Shown one piece after another: positions 4,805-61,559 of a stretch of 64,000 nt of DNA (the stretch's first letter is position 1; each line of letters starts with the position of its first letter). The DNA lies in the NCBI GenBank assembly GCA_021770445.1, contig JAETQY010000010.1:1-64000 (forward strand), given 5' to 3'. This stretch comes from Bacillota bacterium (GTDB lineage Bacteria > Bacillota > Clostridia > Oscillospirales > Oscillospiraceae). The position numbers and the translations under genes are program-made. Below the pieces are notes generated by a model, which searched no databases, was not told the DNA's origin, and saw only the letters and a program-made list of their open reading frames with translations.

Positions 4805-6316
4805 ATGAAACAGAAACAGTTCAATTTCCCCCACACCTTCGTAATCCTATTCTTTGTGGTGCTGTTCTGCGCCGTTCTGACCTACATGATCCCTATGGGT
4901 CAGTACGACACCATCGAGGTCAGCTACGAGCAGAATGGCGAGACCAAGACCCGCACCGTCCTGGACGCCGACTCCTTCCGGTATGTCACTGATGAGAACG
5001 GCAACAAGGTCAATTACAAGGCCCCCATCTTCGGCACCGACGACGTGGGCGGCAAGATCGGCTTCCTCAACTACGCCTTCGAGGGCCTGGTATCTGGCGA
5101 CAAGTGGGGCGCAGCCGTGGGCGTGGCCGCCTTCATCCTCATCGTGGGCGGCGCCTTCGGCATCATGTTCCGCACCGGTGCGGTGGAAAACGCCATTTTC
5201 GCCGCCATCGGCAAGACCAAGTCCAAGGAATTTCTGATTATCCCCGTCCTGTTCCTGCTGTTCTCCGCCGGCGGGGCCATCTTCGGCATGAGCGAGGAGG
5301 CCATCCCCTTCGTCATGATCGTGGCCCCGGTGATGGTCATGATGGGCTACGACGCGGTGGTGGCTGTCATGATTACCTACGGAGCTACCCAGATCGGCTT
5401 TGCCACCTCCTGGATGAACCCCTTCAGCGTCTCGGTGGCCCAGGGCCTGTCCGGCATCCCTATCATGTCCGGCGCCGGCCTGCGGGCCTTCTCCTGGGTG
5501 TTCTTCACCGCCTTCGGCATCGTCTTTACCATGTTCTACGCCCGGAAGGTTAAGAAGAACCCCCTGGCCTCCTACAGCCACGACTCCGACGAGTACTTCC
5601 GCCAGGACGCCGCCGGCAAGGACGTGAAGAACATCAAGCTGGGGGTGGGCGATATCCTGGTGCTCATCACTCTGCTGGTCACCATCGTCTGGGTGATCTG
5701 GGGCGTGGTGGCTCACGGGTACTACATCCCCGAGATCACCGCCCAGTTCTTTATCATGGGCCTGGTGTCCGGCATCATCGGCGTGATCTTCAAGCTCAAC
5801 GATATGAAGACCAACGACATCGCCACCTCCTTCCAGAAGGGGGCCGCCGACCTGCTGGGCGCCGCCCTGGTGGTAGGCATGGCCAGAGGCGTTCTGGTGG
5901 TGCTGGGCGGCTCCGACCCCAGCGTCCCCAGCGTACTGAATACCGTCCTCCACGCCGCCGCCGGCGCCATTGGCCAGCTTCCGGCCGCCGTCTCCGCCTG
6001 GTTCATGTACATCTTCCAGAGCATCTTCAACTTCTTTGTCACCTCCGGCTCCGGACAGGCCGCCCTGACCATGCCCATGATGGCCCCCCTCAGCGATCTG
6101 GTGGGCGTCACCCGTCAGGTGGCCGTGCTGGCCTTCCAGTTCGGCGACGGCTTTACCAACCTGGTGGTCCCCACCTCTGGCGCCCTCATCGGCTGTCTGG
6201 GCGCGGCCCGGATGGACTTCGGCCAGTGGGTGAAGTTCTCCATCAAGCTGATGGCCTTCCTGTTCATCTTCTCCACCATCTTCATCGTAGCCGCCGTTCT
6301 GATGGGCTACAACTGA
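4805..6316 (+). CDS. YfcC family membrane transporter
   Basis: This is a 503-residue integral membrane protein; the ATG at 4805 follows AGGAGG by 5-6 bases. About 11-13 hydrophobic segments are visible, starting at residues 10-30 (FVILFFVVLFCAVLTYMIPM), with a soluble loop at about 35-85. Near the C-terminus are the conserved SGSGQAALTMPMMAPLSD and NLVVPTSG stretches of the YfcC/AbgT-DcuC superfamily. Members are treated as amino acid or dicarboxylate carriers, and substrates are mostly unproven. Being co-transcribed with isoaspartyl dipeptidase, it probably imports a dipeptide or exports or imports aspartate-related compounds; that is inference. Confidence 0.85.
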   Translation: MKQKQFNFPHTFVILFFVVLFCAVLTYMIPMGQYDTIEVSYEQNGETKTRTVLDADSFRYVTDENGNKVNYKAPIFGTDDVGGKIGFLNYAFEGLVSGDKWGAAVGVAAFILIVGGAFGIMFRTGAVENAIFAAIGKTKSKEFLIIPVLFLLFSAGGAIFGMSEEAIPFVMIVAPVMVMMGYDAVVAVMITYGATQIGFATSWMNPFSVSVAQGLSGIPIMSGAGLRAFSWVFFTAFGIVFTMFYARKVKKNPLASYSHDSDEYFRQDAAGKDVKNIKLGVGDILVLITLLVTIVWVIWGVVAHGYYIPEITAQFFIMGLVSGIIGVIFKLNDMKTNDIATSFQKGAADLLGAALVVGMARGVLVVLGGSDPSVPSVLNTVLHAAAGAIGQLPAAVSAWFMYIFQSIFNFFVTSGSGQAALTMPMMAPLSDLVGVTRQVAVLAFQFGDGFTNLVVPTSGALIGCLGAARMDFGQWVKFSIKLMAFLFIFSTIFIVAAVLMGYN

Positions 6317-6329
6317 TTTCCTCGAATTT

Positions 6330-6360
6330 GTCTCCCCGCCCACCCCCCGGGCGGGGAGAC
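6330..6360 (+). terminator. GC-rich hairpin after yfcC
   Basis: GTCTCCCCGCCC (6330-6341) pairs perfectly with GGGCGGGGAGAC (6349-6360). The T-tract is weak (ATTATGTTG), so termination may be partial and some transcripts may continue into the activator gene. Confidence 0.6.
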
Positions 6361-6423
6361 ATTATGTTGCGTCTCCGCCTCCCTCTGTGATAAAATGATA
6401 GAAACACTTTACAGGAGGCCGCT

Positions 6424-8406
6424 ATGAAACAAATTCTGGTCGTCTGTGTGGGTATCCCCACCGGAGAGTCCATCACGGCGGAGCTGAACACTATTTTCCG
6501 GGGCGTGGCCCGGGCCGAGTTCTGCCTGTGCCACCAGCTGCGGGAGAAGGCGGAGGGCCGGGACATCGTCCTGTTCTCCTCCAAATACAGCCAGGCCCTG
6601 TGCGGCGGGACCGCCCTCTCCCCCACTGCCTTCCCGGCCCAGCGGGTTATCAACTACCGAAACCTCCAGGAGGTCATTGAGCTGGAGGCGGGCAGCCGGG
6701 TGCTGCTGGTCAACGACGACAAGGATACCGCCGCCGAGGCCATCGGCCAGCTGATGGAGATCGGCCTCACCGACCTGTACTACTTCCCCTGTTACCCCGG
6801 GAGCCCCGGCCACCCAGAGATCAGCATCGCCATCACGCCCGGAGAGCGGTCCTATGTGCCTGACCACGTCACCCGTGTCATCGATATCGGCGTGCGCACC
6901 CTGGACATCCGTACCATCTATGACCTGGCCCGCCTGCTGGGCGCGGAGCACCTGCTGGATCAGAGCCTGGTGGCCCGGTATCTCAGCCAGATCGTCACGG
7001 TATCCAAGTCCCTGTCCCAGAGCCGTCGACAGACGGAGCAAACGGAACGGCTGTTGGCGGGCATCTTCGACCAGGTGGACAGCGGCATTGCTTACGTGGG
7101 TGCGGACCTGCGGCTGGTCCGCACCAATCCCCTGTTTGAGTCCATCCTGGGGCAGAGCCGGGAGCAACTGCTGGGCCGGCATCCGGAGGAGCTGTTCGGG
7201 GACAGGTTCCGTCGGGTAGAAGAGGGCAGCTTTGTGGTGCCCGTCCGAAGCAGGACCGTGCTGCTGCGGATCAAGGCGCTGGACGATATGGGTCCCTCTT
7301 ATCTTGTCACTGCCGACTATGCGGACACCATCCAGAAGCTGGACCGACGTATCCGTCAGGACAGCGCCCCTCTCCGGCGTCGGCTATACACTTTCCAGGA
7401 CTACCTCACCTGGGACGAGGGCTGCAAAAAAATGTTGGCCCTGGCGGAGAAATTCACCCGCACCGGTGGTACCGTCCTTATCCAGGGGGAGAGTGGCACT
7501 GGCAAGGAAATTTTAGCCCAGAGCATCCACAGCGGCTCCTCCCGCCGGAAGGCCCCCTTTATCCCGGTGAACATCACCTCTCTCACCCCCACCCTGGCGG
7601 AGAGCGAGCTGTTCGGCTATGAGGACGCCTCCTTCACCGGGGCAAAAAAGGGGGGCAAGGCGGGCATCTTCGAACTGGCCGATGGCGGCACTGTCTTTAT
7701 TGACGAGATCGGCGACGCCGCCCCGGAGCTCCAGGCCAAGCTGCTCCGCGCTCTGGAGGAGAAGTCCATCCGCCGGGTGGGCGGGGCGGAGGAGATCCCT
7801 ATCCGGGTGTCCATTGTGGCCGCCACCAACAAGAATTTGCCCGCCATGATTCGGGAGGGGAAATTTCGGGAGGACCTGTTCTTCCGCCTGAATATGTTCC
7901 CCCTGACCACCATTCCCCTGCGGGACAGGCCAGGGGATATCCTGCCCTTGCTGCGGCACTTTCTGGGCCTGGACGCGGAGCTGACGCGGACCCTGCTGGG
8001 GCCAGAAATTACGCGGTTCCTGCAAAACTACCGCTGGCCCGGCAACGTGCGGGAGCTGATGAACGTGGCGGAGTACATTAAGCTCACCCACGAGGGTCAT
8101 CCCCTCGTCCCCCGCGACCTTCCTGAATATATGTCCACTGAGGAGGTGGACAGGGGCCGGGTGTTCCTCAGCCGGCCAGAATATCTGGTTTTGAACGCCG
8201 TATCCAGCTGTGGCCCTCGGGGCGTCGGACGAAGTCGGCTGCAAGGGATGCTCTCCGGGTCCGGTACCGACCTTGGAATCGGGAAGATACGGGCAATCCT
8301 GAAGGCGCTGGAGGAGCGGGGACTGATCGCAAAGGAGAGAAACGGCTGCACGGTCACCGACCAGGGCACGTCAGCCTTGAAACAATTTCAAAGTCCAAAC
8401 CTTTAA
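6424..8406 (+). CDS. Sigma-54-dependent transcriptional activator
   Basis: This 660-residue regulator has AGGAGG 6 bases before its ATG. Residues 1-190 form an N-terminal sensory region that I cannot assign firmly. A PAS-like segment follows at about 215-300, and an AAA+ domain spans about 325-550 with Walker A GESGTGKE, Walker B TVFIDEIGDA and the arginine-finger segment FREDLFFRLN. The RpoN-contacting loop reads ASFTGA instead of the canonical GAFTGA. The C-terminus (565-660) looks like a winged helix rather than the usual Fis-type HTH. It lies directly after iadA-yfcC, whose promoter is a consensus sigma-54 site, so it very likely activates that operon, perhaps on sensing aspartyl peptides. 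Confidence 0.9.
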   Translation: MKQILVVCVGIPTGESITAELNTIFRGVARAEFCLCHQLREKAEGRDIVLFSSKYSQALCGGTALSPTAFPAQRVINYRNLQEVIELEAGSRVLLVNDDKDTAAEAIGQLMEIGLTDLYYFPCYPGSPGHPEISIAITPGERSYVPDHVTRVIDIGVRTLDIRTIYDLARLLGAEHLLDQSLVARYLSQIVTVSKSLSQSRRQTEQTERLLAGIFDQVDSGIAYVGADLRLVRTNPLFESILGQSREQLLGRHPEELFGDRFRRVEEGSFVVPVRSRTVLLRIKALDDMGPSYLVTADYADTIQKLDRRIRQDSAPLRRRLYTFQDYLTWDEGCKKMLALAEKFTRTGGTVLIQGESGTGKEILAQSIHSGSSRRKAPFIPVNITSLTPTLAESELFGYEDASFTGAKKGGKAGIFELADGGTVFIDEIGDAAPELQAKLLRALEEKSIRRVGGAEEIPIRVSIVAATNKNLPAMIREGKFREDLFFRLNMFPLTTIPLRDRPGDILPLLRHFLGLDAELTRTLLGPEITRFLQNYRWPGNVRELMNVAEYIKLTHEGHPLVPRDLPEYMSTEEVDRGRVFLSRPEYLVLNAVSSCGPRGVGRSRLQGMLSGSGTDLGIGKIRAILKALEERGLIAKERNGCTVTDQGTSALKQFQSPNL

Positions 8407-55142: not shown

Positions 55143-55218
55143 GCGAGTGTAGCTCATCTGGTAGAGCGCCACCTTGCCAAGGTGGAGGTAGCGAGTTCGA
55201 GCCTCGTCACTCGCTCCA
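55143..55218 (+). tRNA. tRNA-Gly(GCC)
   Basis: This is a 76-nt cloverleaf. The acceptor GCGAGTG (55143-55149) pairs with CACTCGC (55208-55214). The anticodon stem CCACC/GGTGG encloses loop TTGCCAA, giving anticodon GCC, and the encoded CCA follows discriminator T. Confidence 0.96.
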
Positions 55219-55258
55219 CGTCGCCGCGGACGTCATATCGTTCGCGGCGACTTTTTTA
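55219..55258 (+). terminator. Terminator of tRNA-Gly
   Basis: GTCGCCGCG ... CGCGGCGAC (9 bp) followed by a T-run. Confidence 0.85.
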
Positions 55259-55427: not shown

Positions 55428-55754
55428 CTATTGCGCAATATTTTGATAATTCTGACCCCAGATCTCCATTGCGTCCAGAATGGGCCGGAGGGTCTCCCCC
55501 AATTCATTTAAGGCGTATTCTACGCGGGGCGGCACTTCGGCATAGACCGTGCGACTTATGATGCCGTCGGCCTCCATTGACCGCAGGCTGTCCGTGAGGA
55601 CCTTCTGGCTGATCCCCTCCAGGTCCTTCCTCAGCTCGTTAAACCGCCAGGGGCGCTGGAGCAGATTGCGTAAAATCAACAGCTTCCACTTGCTGCCGAT
55701 GATCTGTACCGTGGTGGCGACCGGGCAGGCGGGCAGCTCTTCTTTTGTCAACAT
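55428..55754 (-). CDS. HxlR-family transcriptional regulator
   Basis: This is a 108-residue winged-helix regulator from ATG 55754, which has AGGAGGG upstream; the longer start at 55799 lies within its promoter. The typical CPVATTVQIIGSKWKLLILRNL, RFNELRKDLEGISQKVLTDSLR and ADGIISRTVYAEVPPRVEYAL segments are present. Cys near residue 9 is the redox-sensing position in YodB/HypR-type members, suggesting a response to electrophiles or oxidants. It is divergent to the Cys-repeat peptide operon and likely regulates it. Confidence 0.9.
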   Translation of the reverse strand: MLTKEELPACPVATTVQIIGSKWKLLILRNLLQRPWRFNELRKDLEGISQKVLTDSLRSMEADGIISRTVYAEVPPRVEYALNELGETLRPILDAMEIWGQNYQNIAQ

Positions 55755-55799
55755 GGCGATGTACCCTCCTATTAGTTTAAAATAGCATGTTACATTCAA

Positions 55800-55828
55800 A
55801 TTATAATATGTTGTGGAACTTTGCGCAA
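55800..55828 (-). promoter_or_regulatory. Sigma-A promoter of the HxlR gene
   Basis: The minus strand reads TTGCGC (55828-55823), 17 bases, TATAAT (55805-55800). Plus-strand repeats around 55830-55885 (GGTTAC, GGTGACT, AAGTGCGTACTTG) may be HxlR binding sites for the divergent operon. Confidence 0.65.
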
Positions 55829-55949
55829 GAGGTTACAAAAAGGTGACTGAGTAATAAAAAAGTGCGTACTTGTTTCCAAGCTGGAGGCGAATTAGGATAG
55901 ATGTGCGGACCGAAAACGGGTCCGACAAACATACTGGAGGTACACAACT

Positions 55950-56099
55950 ATGGCACTCTCTGATCTTTCAAGCTGGAACGGCTCCGCCTGCGGCGCGTCC
56001 GACAAGCCCGCCGCCTGTGGCACAGCCTGTGGTGCGTCCGGCAAGCCGGAGGAGAAACCCGCCGCCTGCGGTACCGCCTGCGGCGCCGGCGACAAGTAA
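55950..56099 (+). CDS. Cys-rich ACGx-repeat RiPP precursor peptide
   Basis: This is a 49-residue peptide with TGGAGG before its ATG. A short leader (MALSDLSSWNG) is followed by the repeats SACGA, AACGTACGA and AACGTACGA separated by Lys/Pro/Asp spacers. There are five cysteines (14, 23, 27, 40, 44), each in an ACG context. It lies directly before a radical SAM/SPASM enzyme, the usual arrangement for ribosomal peptides modified at Cys. I recall families called the ACGX system for such pairs, but have not verified this and know of no determined product. Confidence 0.82.
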   Translation: MALSDLSSWNGSACGASDKPAACGTACGASGKPEEKPAACGTACGAGDK

Positions 56100-56106
56100 C
56101 AGCTGA

Positions 56107-56135
56107 CCCCCGGTAAGGCCAGCCCTTGCCGGGGG
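56107..56135 (+). terminator. Hairpin between precursor and radical SAM genes
   Basis: CCCCCGGTAAGG (56107-56118) pairs with CCTTGCCGGGGG (56124-56135) with one mismatch and no T-run. It is a plausible partial terminator or mRNA stabiliser that would give excess precursor over enzymes. Confidence 0.6.
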
Positions 56136-56184
56136 CAATCAAATGCGGCCGGCCTCGCCGGTTTTCATATAAGGGGAACACAGC

Positions 56185-57216
56185 ATGAAACAATATTTTT
56201 CCTTTCAATGGCACATTACAGACGAATGTGACCAGCGGTGCAAGCACTGCTACATCTTCTCGGAGGACACCTGCAAGCAGCCGGACGCCATGACCTGGGA
56301 GCAGATGCAGGACGTTGTGGACAACTGCCTGGACTTCTGCCAGATGTACCACCGCCTGCCCTACTTCTACCTCACCGGCGGCGACCCCATCCTGCACCCC
56401 GACTTCTGGAGGCTGCTGGGCCTGCTGAAGGAGCGGGATATTCCTTTTACCATCATGGGTAACCCCTTCCACCTGAACGACGAGGTGTGCAAACGTCTGA
56501 AATTCTACGGCTGCCAGAAGTATCAGCTCTCTCTGGACGGGATGCGGAACACCCACGACTGGTTCCGCAAGCCCGGCTCCTTTGACTGCACCCTGGAAAA
56601 AATCGCCTGTATCAAAAACGCCGGCATCCGCAGCGTGATTATGACCACGGTATCAGGTGCTAACATAAAAGAGGTCCCGGACATCATAGATACGGTGGTA
56701 CAATACGGCGCGGACGTGTTTGCCTTTGCCCGGTACTGCCCCACCAGCCAGGAGAAGGACACCGGCATCACCCCCCAGGAGTACCGGGAGCTGCTGGCCC
56801 TCTGCGATGAAAAATTTAAGGCCTATGAGGCGTCGGGCTGTGAGACCTACTTTAATAAAAAGGACCACCTCTGGACGCTGTACGAATATGAGACCGGGGC
56901 CTTCAAAATCCCGGACACCGCCCGGGAGGGCATGATCTACGGTGGCTGCAACTGCGGAAACTGCCATTTGACCATCCTGCCCACCGGCGACCTGTACGCA
57001 TGCCGCCGGGTCCAGAACAGTAAGGTGGGAAATGTCTTTGAGGACAGGATCGCGGACGTGTGGGTCTGCGAGATGGAGGCCTACCGGGATTATCAAAAAT
57101 TCCAGAAGTGCGCCAAATGTGAGCTACTGGCCTGGTGCCGGGGCTGTCCCGCCGTGTCCTGCGGGGCCGACGGGGACTTCTACGCCCCCGACCCCCAGTG
57201 CTGGAAGGAGGTATAG
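56185..57216 (+). CDS. Radical SAM/SPASM peptide-modifying enzyme
   Basis: This 343-residue enzyme has GGGGAAC-type sequence before its ATG. The radical SAM [4Fe-4S] motif is Cys15-Cys19-Cys22 (CDQRCKHC), with YLTGGDP for SAM contact. A C-terminal SPASM-type domain has GGCNCGNCHLTILPTGDLYACRRV and KCAKCELLAWCRGCPAVSC for auxiliary clusters. It should modify the 49-residue Cys-repeat peptide, probably by thioether or related cross-links. It is followed 2 bp later by the flavin/ferredoxin gene. Confidence 0.92.
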   Translation: MKQYFSFQWHITDECDQRCKHCYIFSEDTCKQPDAMTWEQMQDVVDNCLDFCQMYHRLPYFYLTGGDPILHPDFWRLLGLLKERDIPFTIMGNPFHLNDEVCKRLKFYGCQKYQLSLDGMRNTHDWFRKPGSFDCTLEKIACIKNAGIRSVIMTTVSGANIKEVPDIIDTVVQYGADVFAFARYCPTSQEKDTGITPQEYRELLALCDEKFKAYEASGCETYFNKKDHLWTLYEYETGAFKIPDTAREGMIYGGCNCGNCHLTILPTGDLYACRRVQNSKVGNVFEDRIADVWVCEMEAYRDYQKFQKCAKCELLAWCRGCPAVSCGADGDFYAPDPQCWKEV

Positions 57217-57218
57217 TC

Positions 57219-57830
57219 ATGGATGCCAAGACTTGTTTGCAGAAATTGCAGTATGTGGGGGTGTTGGCCTTTGCCACAGTGGACGGGCAGGGCGCGCCCC
57301 AGGTCCGCAACATCAGCGCCATTCACTACGAGCCCGAGGCCCTGTACTTCTTTACGGCTAAGGGCAAGGATTTCTGCCGTCAGCTCCTGGCTGACGGGCG
57401 GGTGCAGATCCTGGGCTATACGAAGTACAAGGAGATGATCCGTCTGTCCGCCAGGGCGAAGCCCGCCGCGGAGCAGCAGAAGTGGATCGACAGAATATTT
57501 GAGGAGCAGCCCTATCTCTCCAACGTGTACCCCGGCGACACCCGCGCGCTGGCCGGGATCGTGTTTGAGGTCAGGGACGGGGAGCTTGAGTATTTCCATC
57601 TGGGAGTCAACCCGATTTTCCGGGAGAGCTACACCATTGGCGGCGGAGCGGTCACAGAGAAGGGCTATCAGATCACAGGGGCCTGTATCGGCTGCGGAAG
57701 CTGCGCCGAGCACTGTCCCCAGCGGTGCATCGAACCGGGGACGCCCTACCAAATCCAGCAGGAGCACTGTCTACACTGCGGCAACTGCCACGGGGTCTGC
57801 CCCGTCCATGCGGTAGAAAGGCGGGGATGA
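57219..57830 (+). CDS. Pyridoxamine-5'-phosphate-oxidase-like flavoprotein fused to ferredoxin
   Basis: This is a 203-residue fusion. A split-barrel flavin domain (1-145, with LAFATVDGQGAPQVRNIS and FFTAKGKDFCRQL) is followed by two [4Fe-4S] motifs (CIGCGSCAEHCPQRCIEP and CLHCGNCHGVCP). GGAGG precedes the ATG and the gene overlaps nothing. It could reduce the radical SAM clusters or act on the peptide; this is inference from position. Confidence 0.85.
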   Translation: MDAKTCLQKLQYVGVLAFATVDGQGAPQVRNISAIHYEPEALYFFTAKGKDFCRQLLADGRVQILGYTKYKEMIRLSARAKPAAEQQKWIDRIFEEQPYLSNVYPGDTRALAGIVFEVRDGELEYFHLGVNPIFRESYTIGGGAVTEKGYQITGACIGCGSCAEHCPQRCIEPGTPYQIQQEHCLHCGNCHGVCPVHAVERRG

Positions 57831-57831
57831 C

Positions 57832-58611
57832 ATGACCCAGGCAGAACGTCGAACATATTTGATACAGAAATTGCTGGCCGAACATCCCAAGTATCGGGAA
57901 CTGTCTGTCCCGGCGGATGCTGCGGAACAGAAAAAACTCCTTCGCTCCCTGATGAATGTCCGCAATCCCCGGCCGGTCAGCCAGGATTTTCTCACAGTGC
58001 AGGACGCATATCTCCAGGAGGAGCTGGCCCAAAGAGGGGTCACCGACCTCGCCGACCTGACACCGATCAGGCCAGGGATCTACCTCTGGCAGGGGGACAT
58101 CACCACCCTGCGCTGTGACGCCATTGTCAACGCCGCCAACAGTGGAATGACCGGCTGCTATGTCCCCTGTCACGGCTGCATTGACAACTGCATCCACACC
58201 TATGCTGGGGTACAGCTGCGGCAGGAGTGCGCGGCAATTATGAGAAAACAGGGCCGGGAGGAGGAGACAGGCGGGGCAAAAATCACGCCGGGCTATAACC
58301 TCCCCTGCAAATATATTCTGCATACTGTGGGACCTATCGTGACCGGACCGCTGACACGGCGGGACGAGGAGCTGCTGGCCTCCTGCTACCGCTCCTGTCT
58401 GGAGCTGGCGGAGCGGCACGGGATCAAAAGCATCGCCTTCTGCTGTATCTCCACGGGGGAATTCCACTTCCCCAACCACAGGGCGGCGGAGATCGCGGTG
58501 CAGACGGTAAGCACATACCAAGCAAATCAAAACAGCGAGATTCAGGTGATTTTCAATGTGTTCAAAGATGTCGATTTTCAAAGCTACCACCAGCTGCTCA
58601 CAGCAGATTGA
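57832..58611 (+). CDS. Zinc-type macrodomain protein (ADP-ribosyl hydrolase)
   Basis: This is a 259-residue protein with an N-terminal helical extension (1-80) and a macrodomain from about 85 (GDITTLRCDAIVNAANSGMTG). The insertion CYVPCHGCIDNCIH supplies Cys/His ligands for zinc, as in Zn-macrodomains found beside class M sirtuins. GYNLPCKYILHTVGP and CCISTGEFHFP complete the ADP-ribose site. It starts 1 bp after the preceding stop and overlaps the sirtuin gene. It should remove the ADP-ribose that the sirtuin adds. Confidence 0.88.
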   Translation: MTQAERRTYLIQKLLAEHPKYRELSVPADAAEQKKLLRSLMNVRNPRPVSQDFLTVQDAYLQEELAQRGVTDLADLTPIRPGIYLWQGDITTLRCDAIVNAANSGMTGCYVPCHGCIDNCIHTYAGVQLRQECAAIMRKQGREEETGGAKITPGYNLPCKYILHTVGPIVTGPLTRRDEELLASCYRSCLELAERHGIKSIAFCCISTGEFHFPNHRAAEIAVQTVSTYQANQNSEIQVIFNVFKDVDFQSYHQLLTAD

Positions 58612-59425
58612 GCGTCTAAAAGCGGCACTGGAAGGAGCTGAGGCCGTTGTCATCGGCGCAGGCTCAGGCCTTTCTACCGCGGCGGGCTTTGTCTACACCG
58701 GGGAACGGTTTGACCGGTATTTCTCGGACTTTGCCGCAAAATATGGGTTTCAGGATATGTACTCCGGCGGCTTTTATCCCTACAGCACCCTGGAGGAATA
58801 CTGGGCCTACTGGAGCCGCTATATCACGGTCAACCGCTACATGGACCCGCCCAGGCCGGTTTATCAAAATCTGCTGGAGCTGGTAAAGGACAAGGACTAC
58901 TTTGTACTGACCACCAATGTGGACCACTGCTTTCAGAAGGCTGGCTTTGATAAAAAGCGGCTGTTCTACACCCAGGGGGACTACGGACTGTTTCAATGTA
59001 GCGGGCCCTGCCACCAGGAGACCCTTGACAACGAGGGCGCCATCAAGGCTATGATGGAGCAGCAGAAAGAGATGCGAATCCCATTCTCCCTGGTTCCCCG
59101 CTGCCCCCACTGTGGCCGGCCCCTGACTATGAACCTCCGGGCCGACGACAAATTTGTGGAGGATGAGGGCTGGCACTCCGCCGCCCAACGGTACTCCGAT
59201 TTTCTGCGCCGCCACGGGAATACAACTGTCCTGTTTCTGGAGCTGGGGGTGGGCTACAACACGCCGGTCATCATCAAATATCCGTTCTGGCGTATGACCG
59301 CGGCCAATCAGAGGGCAACCTATGCCTGTATCAATTTGGGCGAGGCGATCTGTCCGCAAGAGATAGCGCCACGATCCATCTGCATCGGCGGAGAGATTGA
59401 AGCCGTGCTGGACAATCTGATCTGA
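58556..59425 (+). CDS. Class M-like sirtuin (SirTM), protein ADP-ribosyltransferase
   Basis: This is a 289-residue SIR2-family protein. The NAD-binding loop GAGSGLSTAAGF and the catalytic region TTNVDHCFQKAGF are present; a zinc site is seen as CSGPCHQ and CPHCGRP. In SirTM enzymes of pathogenic Firmicutes and fungi the activity is ADP-ribosylation of lipoylated GcvH-like proteins in oxidative stress. Here GcvH-L and lipoate ligase genes are absent and a Cys-repeat peptide with rSAM enzyme takes their place. The ATG at 58556 overlaps the macrodomain gene by 56 bp; ATG 58568 is an alternative. Confidence 0.88.
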   Translation: MCSKMSIFKATTSCSQQIERLKAALEGAEAVVIGAGSGLSTAAGFVYTGERFDRYFSDFAAKYGFQDMYSGGFYPYSTLEEYWAYWSRYITVNRYMDPPRPVYQNLLELVKDKDYFVLTTNVDHCFQKAGFDKKRLFYTQGDYGLFQCSGPCHQETLDNEGAIKAMMEQQKEMRIPFSLVPRCPHCGRPLTMNLRADDKFVEDEGWHSAAQRYSDFLRRHGNTTVLFLELGVGYNTPVIIKYPFWRMTAANQRATYACINLGEAICPQEIAPRSICIGGEIEAVLDNLI

Positions 59426-59501
59426 AGAAATTTTTCTGCCCTGGCCGTCATCAGCGGCTAGGGCTCCCATTTTGTCTTGATAGCTCCACGTCATGTTCAC
59501 A

Positions 59502-59531: not shown

Positions 59532-59582
59532 TAAGGTGTTAGATTGGGTTTGTATGCCCAACAGAAAATGCGAGGGATCACC

Positions 59583-61559
59583 ATGAAAAAGAATTATGGC
59601 AACGACTCCATCTCCGCCCTGAAGGGGGCCGACCGGGTACGGAAGCGTCCCGGGGTTATTTTCGGCTCCGACGGGCTGGAGGGCTGTGAGCACGCCGTTT
59701 TTGAAATCATGTCCAATGCCATCGACGAGGCCCGGGAGGGCCACGGCTCACTCATCACCGTCACCCGGTTCGAGGACGGCTCCATCCAGGTGGAGGACCA
59801 GGGCCGAGGCTGCCCCGTGGACTGGAACGAGAAGGAGCAGAAGTTCAACTGGGAACTGGTGTTCTGCGAGCTGTACGCCGGCGGCAAGTACGACAACGAG
59901 GGCGGCGACAACTACGAGTACTCCTTAGGCCTCAACGGTCTGGGCTCCTGCGCCACCCAGTACGCCAGCGAGTTTATGGACGTCACCGTGTGGCGGGAGG
60001 GGAAGAAGTACACCCTCCACTTTGAGAAGGGGGAAAACATCGGCGGTTTGCGGTCCGAGCCCACCGATCGGGGCAAAAAGACGGGCACCACCATCCGCTG
60101 GAAGCCCGACTTGCAAGTGTTCACTGACATCGCCATCCCCGTGGACTACTATCTGGACGTAATGAAGCGGCAGGCGGTGGTCAACGCCGGGGTGACCTTC
60201 CGCTTTAAAAATCAGGTGGGCGGCAAGTTCGAGACAACCGACTTTCAGTACGACAACGGCATTGTGGACTACGTGGCCGAGCTGGCCGGGGAGGACGCCC
60301 TCACCGCCCCCGTCTTCTGGCAGACCGAGCGCAAGGGCCGGGACCGGGCGGACAAGCCGGAGTACAAGGTAAAGCTGTCGGTCTCCTTCTGCTTCTCCAA
60401 CAAGGTGCAGGTGGTGGAGCACTACCACAACTCCTCCTGGCTGGAGCACGGCGGCTCCCCGGAGAAGGCCATGCGCTCCGCCTTTGTCTCCGCCATCGAC
60501 GGCTGGCTCAAGGGGCAGAACAAGTACACCAAGGGGGAGAGTAAGATCACCTTCCCCGACATTCAGGACGCCCTGGTGCTGGTGAGCAACAACTTCTCCA
60601 CCCAGACCTCCTATGAGAACCAGACCAAGAAGGCCATCAACAACAAGTTTGTCCAGGAGGCCATGACGGAGTTCCTCCGGGCTCAGATGGAGGTCTACTT
60701 CATCGAGAACCCCGCCGACGCCCAGAAGATCGCCGAGCAGGTGCTCATCAACAAGCGGGCCCGGGAGAACGCGGAAAAGACCCGCCTCAATATTAAGAAG
60801 AAGCTCACCGGGACCATGGACATCTCCAACCGGGTGGCCAAGTTTGTCCCCTGCCGCACCCGGGACGTGAACCGCAGCGAGCTGTATATCGTGGAGGGCG
60901 ACTCGGCGCTGGGCAGCGTGAAGCAGGCCCGGGACGGGGAATTCCAGGCCATCATGCCCATCCGGGGCAAGATCCTCAACTGCCTCAAGGCGGATTACGG
61001 CAAGATCTTCAAGAGCGAGATCATCACCGACCTGCTGAAGGTGCTGGGCTGCGGGGTGGAGGTCCACGACAAGCGGGCCAAGGATATGGCCGCCTTCGAC
61101 CTCAACGCCCTGCGGTGGAACAAGATTGTCATCTGCACCGACGCTGATGTGGACGGCTTCCAGATCAGGACCCTGGTGCTCACCATGCTCTACCGCCTCA
61201 CCCCCACCCTGATCCAGGAGGGGTACGTCTATATCGCCGAGTCCCCCCTGTTCGAGATCACCTGCAAGGAAAAGACCTGGTTCGCCTACTCCAACAAGGA
61301 GAAGGATGACATTGTGGCCACCCTCCAGGGGAAAAAATACGACGTCCAGCGCTCCAAGGGCCTGGGCGAGAACGAGCCGGAGATGATGTGGCTGACCACC
61401 ATGTCCCCCGATACCCGTCGGCTCATCAAGGTGATGCCCGAGGACGTGGAACGCACCGCCTACATGTTCGACCTCCTCCTGGGGGACGACCTCACCGGCC
61501 GGAAGAACCACATCGCCGACCACGGCCACGAGTTTTTGGAGCTGGCGGATATCTCTTGA
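59583..61559 (+). CDS. Divergent type II topoisomerase subunit B (GyrB/ParE-like)
   Basis: This is a 658-residue ATPase subunit with a GHKL domain: RVRKRPGVIFGSDG, NAIDEARE, and EYSLGLNGLGSCATQYAS for the ATP lid. The Toprim domain carries LYIVEGDSALGSVKQARD and the metal-binding DADVDG. It is more divergent than the housekeeping GyrB and has the form common as a second pair in Oscillospiraceae. The A subunit follows after one gene of unrelated type (61625-63466). ATG 59583 was chosen because GCGAGGGA precedes it. Confidence 0.92.
   Translation: MKKNYGNDSISALKGADRVRKRPGVIFGSDGLEGCEHAVFEIMSNAIDEAREGHGSLITVTRFEDGSIQVEDQGRGCPVDWNEKEQKFNWELVFCELYAGGKYDNEGGDNYEYSLGLNGLGSCATQYASEFMDVTVWREGKKYTLHFEKGENIGGLRSEPTDRGKKTGTTIRWKPDLQVFTDIAIPVDYYLDVMKRQAVVNAGVTFRFKNQVGGKFETTDFQYDNGIVDYVAELAGEDALTAPVFWQTERKGRDRADKPEYKVKLSVSFCFSNKVQVVEHYHNSSWLEHGGSPEKAMRSAFVSAIDGWLKGQNKYTKGESKITFPDIQDALVLVSNNFSTQTSYENQTKKAINNKFVQEAMTEFLRAQMEVYFIENPADAQKIAEQVLINKRARENAEKTRLNIKKKLTGTMDISNRVAKFVPCRTRDVNRSELYIVEGDSALGSVKQARDGEFQAIMPIRGKILNCLKADYGKIFKSEIITDLLKVLGCGVEVHDKRAKDMAAFDLNALRWNKIVICTDADVDGFQIRTLVLTMLYRLTPTLIQEGYVYIAESPLFEITCKEKTWFAYSNKEKDDIVATLQGKKYDVQRSKGLGENEPEMMWLTTMSPDTRRLIKVMPEDVERTAYMFDLLLGDDLTGRKNHIADHGHEFLELADIS

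Follow-up and report, generated by a model that had tools for sequence, protein, structure and literature searches.

An ACGX peptide-radical SAM pair and a SirTM/Zn-Macro pair are conserved neighbors in clostridial genomes

What would a sirtuin and a macrodomain protein be doing beside a radical S-adenosylmethionine (SAM) peptide-modifying system? The question is raised by positions 55428-59425 of a 64,000-nucleotide stretch of contig JAETQY010000010.1 (assembly GCA_021770445.1, a Bacillota bacterium of the Oscillospiraceae), the whole of which we call the window. A divergent HxlR gene on the minus strand stands there ahead of five plus-strand genes: acgA, acgM, a gene for a PNPOx-ferredoxin fusion (PNPOx-Fd), a Zn-type macrodomain gene (Zn-Macro), and the gene for a class M sirtuin (SirTM). 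A first-pass annotation had described the arrangement as a ribosomally synthesized and post-translationally modified peptide (RiPP) pathway fused to an ADP-ribosylation pair, and had suggested that the peptide or its modified product could serve as target or sensor. When the neighborhood was checked across genomes, the peptide-radical SAM pair and the macrodomain-SirTM pair proved to be conserved neighbors that co-occur far above background; they were not found only independently of each other. The word "fused" does not hold literally, as no fusion gene was met, although fusions were not looked for systematically.

Co-occurrence was measured in an even sample of 391 genomes of the class (SirTM threshold 1e-60), in which AcgM, the radical SAM enzyme, is present in 16 genomes and SirTM in 63. 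All 16 AcgM genomes carry SirTM, compared with 47 of the 375 AcgM-free genomes (Fisher p = 3.5e-14, or 2.2e-13 with the window's own genome removed). These p values are too small because the genomes are not independent, and a count of one vote per genus is fairer: SirTM is present in 10 of 10 AcgM genera and in 33 of 213 others (p = 2.8e-8). Distances read from coordinates place SirTM downstream of AcgM, on the same strand and within 5 kb, in 13 of the 16 genomes; it lies on another contig in the other three (G083, G485, and G519), and the G485 copy is just 43% identical. Among 199 relatives (SirTM threshold 1e-15), AcgM scored over its cut-off in 12, and SirTM was found in 10 of these versus 41 of the 187 others (p = 2.5e-5).

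A scan of named genomes with an AcgM alignment gave 569 confirmed candidates. The named loci considered here lean to close relatives because only the best 80 of the 569 were kept. Content was scored by profiles over all reading frames in the 57 loci with at least 4.5 kb of downstream sequence, leaving out the 23 of 80 with less. PNPOx-Fd is present in 36 of the 57, the macrodomain in 24, SirTM in 32, macrodomain and SirTM together in 23, and none of the three in 15. SirTM is carried elsewhere in 20 of the 25 genomes without a local copy (threshold 1e-40; the weakest best-per-genome match was 2.5e-81), which brings the total to 52 of 57. In the cultivable carrier Mediterraneibacter glycyrrhizinilyticus An427 (L094, G593), SirTM does not adjoin acgM. 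This unlinked SirTM is itself enriched over AcgM-free relatives (20/25 versus 41/187; Fisher p = 1.9e-8). Cas1, an unrelated accessory gene that served as the one control for genome richness, was not enriched (8/25 versus 50/199, p = 0.47).

The two modules also have an upstream site in common. Upstream of acgA it takes the form GTTAC-N5-GGT-N2-C...GTGCGTACTT, and the exact 10-base core GTGCGTACTT is found in 61 of 72 such regions, the count being confined to loci with a clear acgA start. A 40-base pattern derived from the window site and its relatives matches once in the window (0 in shuffles) and once in the window's own genome. At SirTM loci separate from ACGX, the same site stands upstream in 22 of 40, as the core or as the variants GTGCTTACTT and GTGCGTACTG, and often has the form, judged by eye, of GTTACC-N4-GGTAACTAYRGCACAAWATTGTGCGTACTT. 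Over 413 kb of these loci, 24 matches lie upstream on the SirTM strand, 1 downstream, and 1 on the other strand. Some of the SirTM loci with the site, L158 and L168 among them, show no HxlR match in the fetched stretch. A genome-wide scan allowing up to 3 mismatches found the site in 8 of 11 and in 21 of 25 genomes, whereas the pattern read backwards gave 0 in both sets. In both G008 and G078 the scan gave a pair of sites and no more, of which one marks ACGX and the other precedes a SirTM operon not linked to it; these positions turn up again in the 25-genome set, under G599 and G581. Any site inside the fetched ACGX locus was assigned to ACGX, and any that preceded SirTM by no more than 5 kb, sharing its contig and strand, to SirTM. 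By this rule the 37 sites of the 25 genomes divide into 20 in ACGX loci, 7 upstream of SirTM, and 10 at neither, some of which may belong to ACGX or SirTM in these fragmented drafts. The site is probably the operator to which HxlR binds. That both modules carry it, in some genomes even where they lie apart, supports the earlier claim of co-regulation.

Within the window, open reading frames and family profiles place all six genes where the first-pass annotation had called them (Table 1), with the HxlR start set by us at the ATG of MLTKEE. The close packing described earlier is likewise borne out by the sequence, with gaps of 2 bp between acgM and PNPOx-Fd and 1 bp between PNPOx-Fd and the macrodomain gene, and an overlap of 56 bp between the macrodomain and SirTM genes. 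By eye, the candidate promoter overlaps the end of the operator-like site. The gene that adjoins the operon, at 59544-61559, encodes a DNA gyrase B/topoisomerase IV B-type protein according to Pfam. A 10-bp repeat, GCTCCACGTC, occurs at 55213-55222, the 3' end of a tRNA-Gly gene (55143-55218), and again at 59483-59492, just 3' of the operon, and may mark an insertion at the tRNA. Two matches compare with a mean of 0.15 expected, and 2 of 100 shuffles had at least two, although the repeat was tested after it had been noticed. No tRNA-Gly was found at the 16 ACGX loci scanned as a check of this reading.

Table 1. Positions of the operon genes and control elements in the window
Feature	Positions	Strand	Basis
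HxlR/DUF24-family regulator, divergent	55428..55754	-	PF01638, 108 bits
Conserved operator-like site GTTACAAAAAGGTGACTGAGTAATAAAAAAGTGCGTACTT	55832..55871	+	Pattern match; putative HxlR binding
Candidate promoter: -35 TTGTTT (55870-55875), 17-bp spacer, -10 TAGGAT (55893-55898)	55870..55898	+	By eye
acgA, 49-residue ACGX-repeat precursor peptide	55950..56099	+	TIGR04341, 54.5 bits (cut-off 28)
acgM, radical SAM/SPASM maturase of the ACGX system	56185..57216	+	TIGR04340, 611 bits (cut-off 400)
PNPOx-ferredoxin fusion (PNPOx-Fd)	57219..57830	+	PF01243 and PF00037
Zn-type macrodomain, predicted protein-ADP-ribose hydrolase	57832..58611	+	NF003163, 372.5 bits (cut-off 272)
Class M sirtuin (SirTM)	58556..59425	+	Best solved relative 5a3a, E = 7.7e-70

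The acgA/acgM pair is the annotated NCBI family pair of the ACGX system by its profile matches, precursor and maturase being adjacent and each above its cut-off; in a complete Roseburia plasmid, NCBI annotation uses the same gene names. AcgA has five cysteines and the leader MALSDLSSW, and its DNA contains internal repeats of 28 and 45 nucleotides. The AlphaFold model of AcgM (predicted local distance difference test, pLDDT, 87.7) has as its closest solved folds SkfB (6efn), 5why (a sactipeptide thioether maturase by its title), anSMEcpe, and SuiB. Outside its own family, the best NCBIfam match of AcgM is SbtM at 169.6 bits, the next one scoring 126. No exporter or peptidase at a fixed position was seen among the recurrent neighbors of ACGX, which fits a peptide that would stay in the cell; by eye, an ABC-type ATPase lies about 5 kb downstream in four ACGX loci. 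An anti-phage reading was dropped: PADLOC returned weak viperin matches to the radical SAM enzyme only and none for the other three proteins submitted. Two IMG/VR loci (53-57% identity), neither with SirTM in the sequence covered, may point to carriage by phage. On a Methanosphaera plasmid, an acgM-like gene is annotated as two pieces, and the 17 kb shown contain no macrodomain or SirTM gene. In Fonticella tunisiensis, codon 3 of acgM is a stop (L123, 10007-10009), and that genome (G602) gave no SirTM match. No paper on the ACGX radical SAM system was found in the open-licence literature; those listed for the name ACGX alone concern other matters, judging by their titles.

The last two genes of the operon were called earlier as a Zn-type macrodomain and a class M-like sirtuin, and their motifs and closest structures agree. 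In the sirtuin the catalytic places are N121, D123, Q140 followed by G141, and R195, so that QG replaces HG. The hallmark of SpySirTM, as given in the part of PMC4518038 available to us, is QG for the catalytic HG together with Asn118, Asp120, and Arg192, and going by these residues 5a3a is the Streptococcus pyogenes SirTM. The residues are identical in 42 of 42 aligned ACGX-linked rows, the window's own included. The protein scores under the Pfam SIR2 cut-off (16.6 versus 24), and the linkage to a macrodomain gene that marks the class is present through the overlap of the two genes. The macrodomain has 5kiv, a protein-ADP-ribose hydrolase, as its best solved relative (E = 2.1e-79), and it shows both features of Zn-Macros, a Cx4HxC Zn-loop and an NAAN motif (PMC11490716), at residues 109-116 and 100, respectively. 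Cx4HxC is present in 72 of 76 macrodomain sequences, the remaining 4 being short or split reading frames. An N-terminal extension is apparent in that the Pfam Macro domain begins at residue 99 and the 5kiv alignment at residue 6. Class M sirtuins are further marked by ADP-ribosyltransferase activity in the absence of deacylase activity. In the operon, SirTM should attach ADP-ribose and Zn-Macro should remove it, and the accessible portion of PMC11490716 mentions an ability of Zn-Macros to cleave S-linked ADP-ribose on cysteine. Four relatives (G047:C277, G050:C2, G015:C20, and G055:C25) carry tandem pairs of more distant SirTM homologs (33-36% identity); in the rows of the first of these (L196), the Asp, Gln, and Arg catalytic places each show one change, to Glu, Glu, and Ala, respectively.

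PNPOx-Fd joins an FMN-type split barrel of the PNPOx/NimA-like kind to a 4Fe-4S ferredoxin with two cysteine clusters. The closest solved folds of its model (pLDDT 84.7) are 2i02 and 2ig6 of the NimC/NimA family. In relatives, the gene after acgM encodes a nitroreductase (L199) or an MDR-type dehydrogenase (L203), as assigned by Pfam and, at other loci, by eye; the window has neither at this place. In the nearest named relative (L046; AcgM 91% identical), what looks by eye like a nitroreductase gene separates acgM from PNPOx-Fd, at about 1.0-1.6 kb from the start of acgM. At L199 (genome G249), toxin-antitoxin-like small genes and an HD-domain gene lie by eye between PNPOx-Fd and the macrodomain gene (5805-7088), and the operon order is preserved on either side of them.

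The divergent regulator was identified earlier as a thiol-sensing HxlR protein. The domain and an N-terminal cysteine are confirmed, the latter being the single cysteine, within ELPACPV, and redox sensing would be in keeping with the family. Membership in the RrpB family is not indicated (NF047364, 119 bits, under the cut-off of 175). A divergent HxlR gene stands upstream in 56 of the 67 named ACGX loci with at least 2 kb of upstream sequence. HxlR/DUF24 proteins are described, in the portion of PMC6943732 at hand, as having an N-terminal cysteine and nitroreductase-type targets, and the redox gene company of the operon matches this biology.

Quick trees, built without bootstrap and with short matches and four duplicate loci left out, bear on how the modules came together. 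On the SirTM tree, ACGX-linked (42) and separate (38) sequences are mixed, with 12 changes versus 27 in shuffles. The AcgM tree shows 20 changes of local SirTM, at least 9 of them on well-supported branches, and the macrodomain and SirTM change together on it (median p = 0.016, range 0.008-0.29). PNPOx-Fd was rejected as a linked trait: its association with local SirTM (Fisher p = 0.002) is not significant on the AcgM tree. The ACGX cluster is present on two plasmid records. The ACGX and SirTM modules have joined or parted many times, with SirTM mostly kept in the genome.

The known SirTM target, GcvH-L, offers no ready answer in this genome. As the first-pass annotation stated, the operon has neither GcvH-L nor lipoate ligase, and the draft genome, at 94.5% completeness such that a missed gene is possible, gave no match to GcvH (PF01597) or to lipoate-protein ligase (TIGR00545). 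GcvH-L was accordingly set aside as a hidden target. GcvH and SirTM are almost mutually exclusive in the class sample (GcvH in 3 of 63 SirTM genomes versus 110 of 328 others, p = 5e-7), so most clostridial SirTMs of the sample must have a different target, which can be ACGX for only some of them. In the available text of PMC11490716, SirTM targets beyond GcvH-L are given as unknown, and the word "radical" does not occur. In the open-licence literature we found no paper linking SirTM or its macrodomain to radical SAM enzymes or RiPPs, none among the matches listed that treats SirTM and HxlR together, and none on ADP-ribosylation of a radical SAM precursor peptide (one match, on diphthamide by its title). 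Genome G572 holds what seems to be a further kind of SirTM partner module, one with a lipoyl-type carrier: in a ferredoxin-containing cluster (L198, 5316-8093), a gene for a DGC-GcvH fusion is followed after about 1 kb by a SirTM gene with 63% identity to that of the window.

The reading that we favor, and that we place just short of probable, is that the operon encodes one HxlR-controlled thiol/electrophile-stress response of anaerobic gut clostridia, in which ACGX takes the place of lipoyl-GcvH-L and LplA2, and SirTM/Zn-Macro gate the module. Its observed basis is the order and family membership of the genes, their intact catalytic motifs, their co-occurrence, and the upstream site that the modules share. 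As in its family, HxlR would sense disulfide, quinone, or aldehyde stress through its cysteine and free the operon. AcgM would then modify the cysteines of AcgA inside the cell, and the flavoproteins (PNPOx-Fd, with a nitroreductase or MDR-type dehydrogenase in relatives) would supply the peptide with electrons or detoxify the stressor. SirTM and Zn-Macro would add and remove ADP-ribose on a component of the module, most likely mature AcgA, and so gate it. Like lipoyl-GcvH-L, AcgA would be a carrier rich in sulfur that its own dedicated modifying enzyme primes. The peptide is a candidate for the target of SirTM. That the mature peptide in particular is reversibly ADP-ribosylated by SirTM and released by Zn-Macro, perhaps at cysteine, as a stand-in for lipoyl-GcvH-L, is possible but doubtful.

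Several observations weigh against this reading. The linkage is incomplete: in the relatives sample, SirTM is linked to only 5 of the 12 AcgM loci, is found on a different contig in 5, and is missing from 2 (G010 and G035); a local SirTM is lacking at 25 of the 57 named ACGX loci, in 5 cases with no match anywhere in the genome; and of the 32 loci that do have a local SirTM, 9 show no macrodomain gene within 7 kb downstream. Conversely, 47 of the 63 SirTM genomes are without AcgM, and SirTM must have work that does not involve it. GcvH is found in 1 of the 16 SirTM genomes with AcgM and in 2 of the 47 without; it is scarce in both groups, so its absence is no pointer to ACGX in particular. The AcgM tree shows hardly any clustering of local SirTM (20 changes versus a shuffled mean of 23.6, with 34 of 500 shuffles as low). 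The upstream site was not found in 3 of 11 and 4 of 25 genomes scanned, including G006, G192, and G387, the last of which has a linked pair, and at the stringency used it stands upstream of SirTM in 6 of the 20 genomes with an unlinked copy. Five of the loci with sites at neither module, in four genomes, appear by eye (and by Pfam for the G010 locus) to hold nitroreductase-like, PNPOx, SnoaL-like, and NAD(P)-binding genes, so the regulon would comprise oxidoreductases, ACGX, and SirTM/macrodomain. No peptide feature specific to SirTM was seen by eye, as ACGX peptides with and without local SirTM look alike and the GDK acid is present in both; in the comparison, 5 loci yielded no peptide and several a partial or doubtful one.

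How else could the neighborhood be explained? That it reflects chance or an assembly accident has negligible probability. Such an accident would suit the 25 of 57 ACGX loci where local SirTM is missing, but the order acgM, PNPOx-Fd, macrodomain, SirTM is annotated in the complete Roseburia plasmid (in full HxlR, acgA, acgM, nitroreductase, PNPOx-Fd as a 4Fe-4S binding protein, macrodomain, SirTM), and the arrangement recurs in drafts of several families and, as far as SirTM is concerned, in 13 of the 16 evenly sampled AcgM genomes; the co-occurrence counts of the named loci and of the class sample rule it out. A realistic possibility, if not a probable one, is that ACGX and SirTM/Zn-Macro are separate arms of one HxlR regulon, induced and transferred together, and that SirTM has its target elsewhere. 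The site ahead of nitroreductase-like, PNPOx, and SnoaL-like genes, the many ACGX-free SirTM operons, the roughly 20 changes of local SirTM on the AcgM tree with at least 9 on well-supported branches, and the two plasmid records all agree with this explanation. The near-obligate, lopsided co-occurrence, complete in the class sample and maintained in 20 of 25 genomes where the genes are unlinked, is not something that shared regulation alone demands.

Two further proposals concern individual proteins of the operon. SirTM might act on PNPOx-Fd instead of the peptide, with ADP-ribose switching the electron supply on and off. This very unlikely alternative draws on the presence of PNPOx-Fd in 26 of 32 ACGX loci with local SirTM versus 10 of 25 without, and on matches above 200 bits beside SirTM in 11 of 40 separate, ACGX-free loci (counted by eye); however, 6 of the 32 SirTM-bearing ACGX loci and 29 of the 40 separate loci have no such match, and joint change with SirTM on the AcgM tree is not significant (median p = 0.625, range 0.06-1, random pairings). 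The other proposal, which we regard as unlikely, touches the role of the peptide and not its link to SirTM: through an SbtM-like reaction, AcgA could become a thiooxazole peptide that buffers metal inside the cell, in the manner of the bufferins but in anaerobes. SbtM is the runner-up match of AcgM, it turns cysteine into thiooxazole (PMC11002830, in the part available), and thiooxazoles occur in bufferins (PMC12538549, likewise in part). The SbtM score nevertheless falls below the family cut-off of 350, and no metal-handling gene is prominent by eye among the recurrent neighbors.

The operon offers small co-encoded target candidates, AcgA and then PNPOx-Fd, together with a statistical reason to test them. 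The ACGX family also gains a likely physiological setting, an intracellular stress response under HxlR control. Should the peptide prove to be what SirTM modifies, a RiPP would be under the control of reversible ADP-ribosylation.

The operon can be set beside several known systems. Its acgA and acgM place it in the ACGX system, whose family names and descriptions make no mention of the SirTM, Zn-Macro, HxlR, or upstream site that surround the pair in the window. AcgM resembles the thio(seleno)oxazole maturase SbtM in being a radical SAM/SPASM maturase acting on a cysteine peptide but scores 169.6 bits against a TIGR04082 cut-off of 350. The regulator is like YodB, CatR, and HypR in its HxlR domain, N-terminal cysteine, and nitroreductase-type targets; unlike theirs, its putative targets would include a RiPP and an ADP-ribosylation pair. 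The lone clostridial SirTM/Zn-Macro operons have the same sirtuin family, often a divergent HxlR, PNPOx genes, and the same upstream site, but no acgA or acgM in the stretches read. The extended SirTM operon of Staphylococcaceae and Lactobacillales consists of GcvH-L, LplA2, SirTM, Zn-Macro, OYE, and LLM, according to the available parts of PMC4518038 and PMC11490716. Shared with it are SirTM and Zn-Macro with intact motifs, flavin oxidoreductases, and stress-type regulation, which the HxlR gene suggests for the window. The window operon is not of this lipoyl type, having a RiPP precursor and a radical SAM maturase instead of GcvH-L and LplA2, and it differs further in its divergent HxlR and shared operator-like site; where the extended operon has OYE and LLM, ACGX operons have PNPOx-Fd with a nitroreductase or MDR. 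In the parallel that we propose, AcgM would correspond to LplA2 in priming the carrier, AcgA to GcvH-L as the sulfur-bearing carrier, and nitroreductase, MDR, and PNPOx-Fd to OYE and LLM as the oxidoreductases, with SirTM and Zn-Macro common to both.

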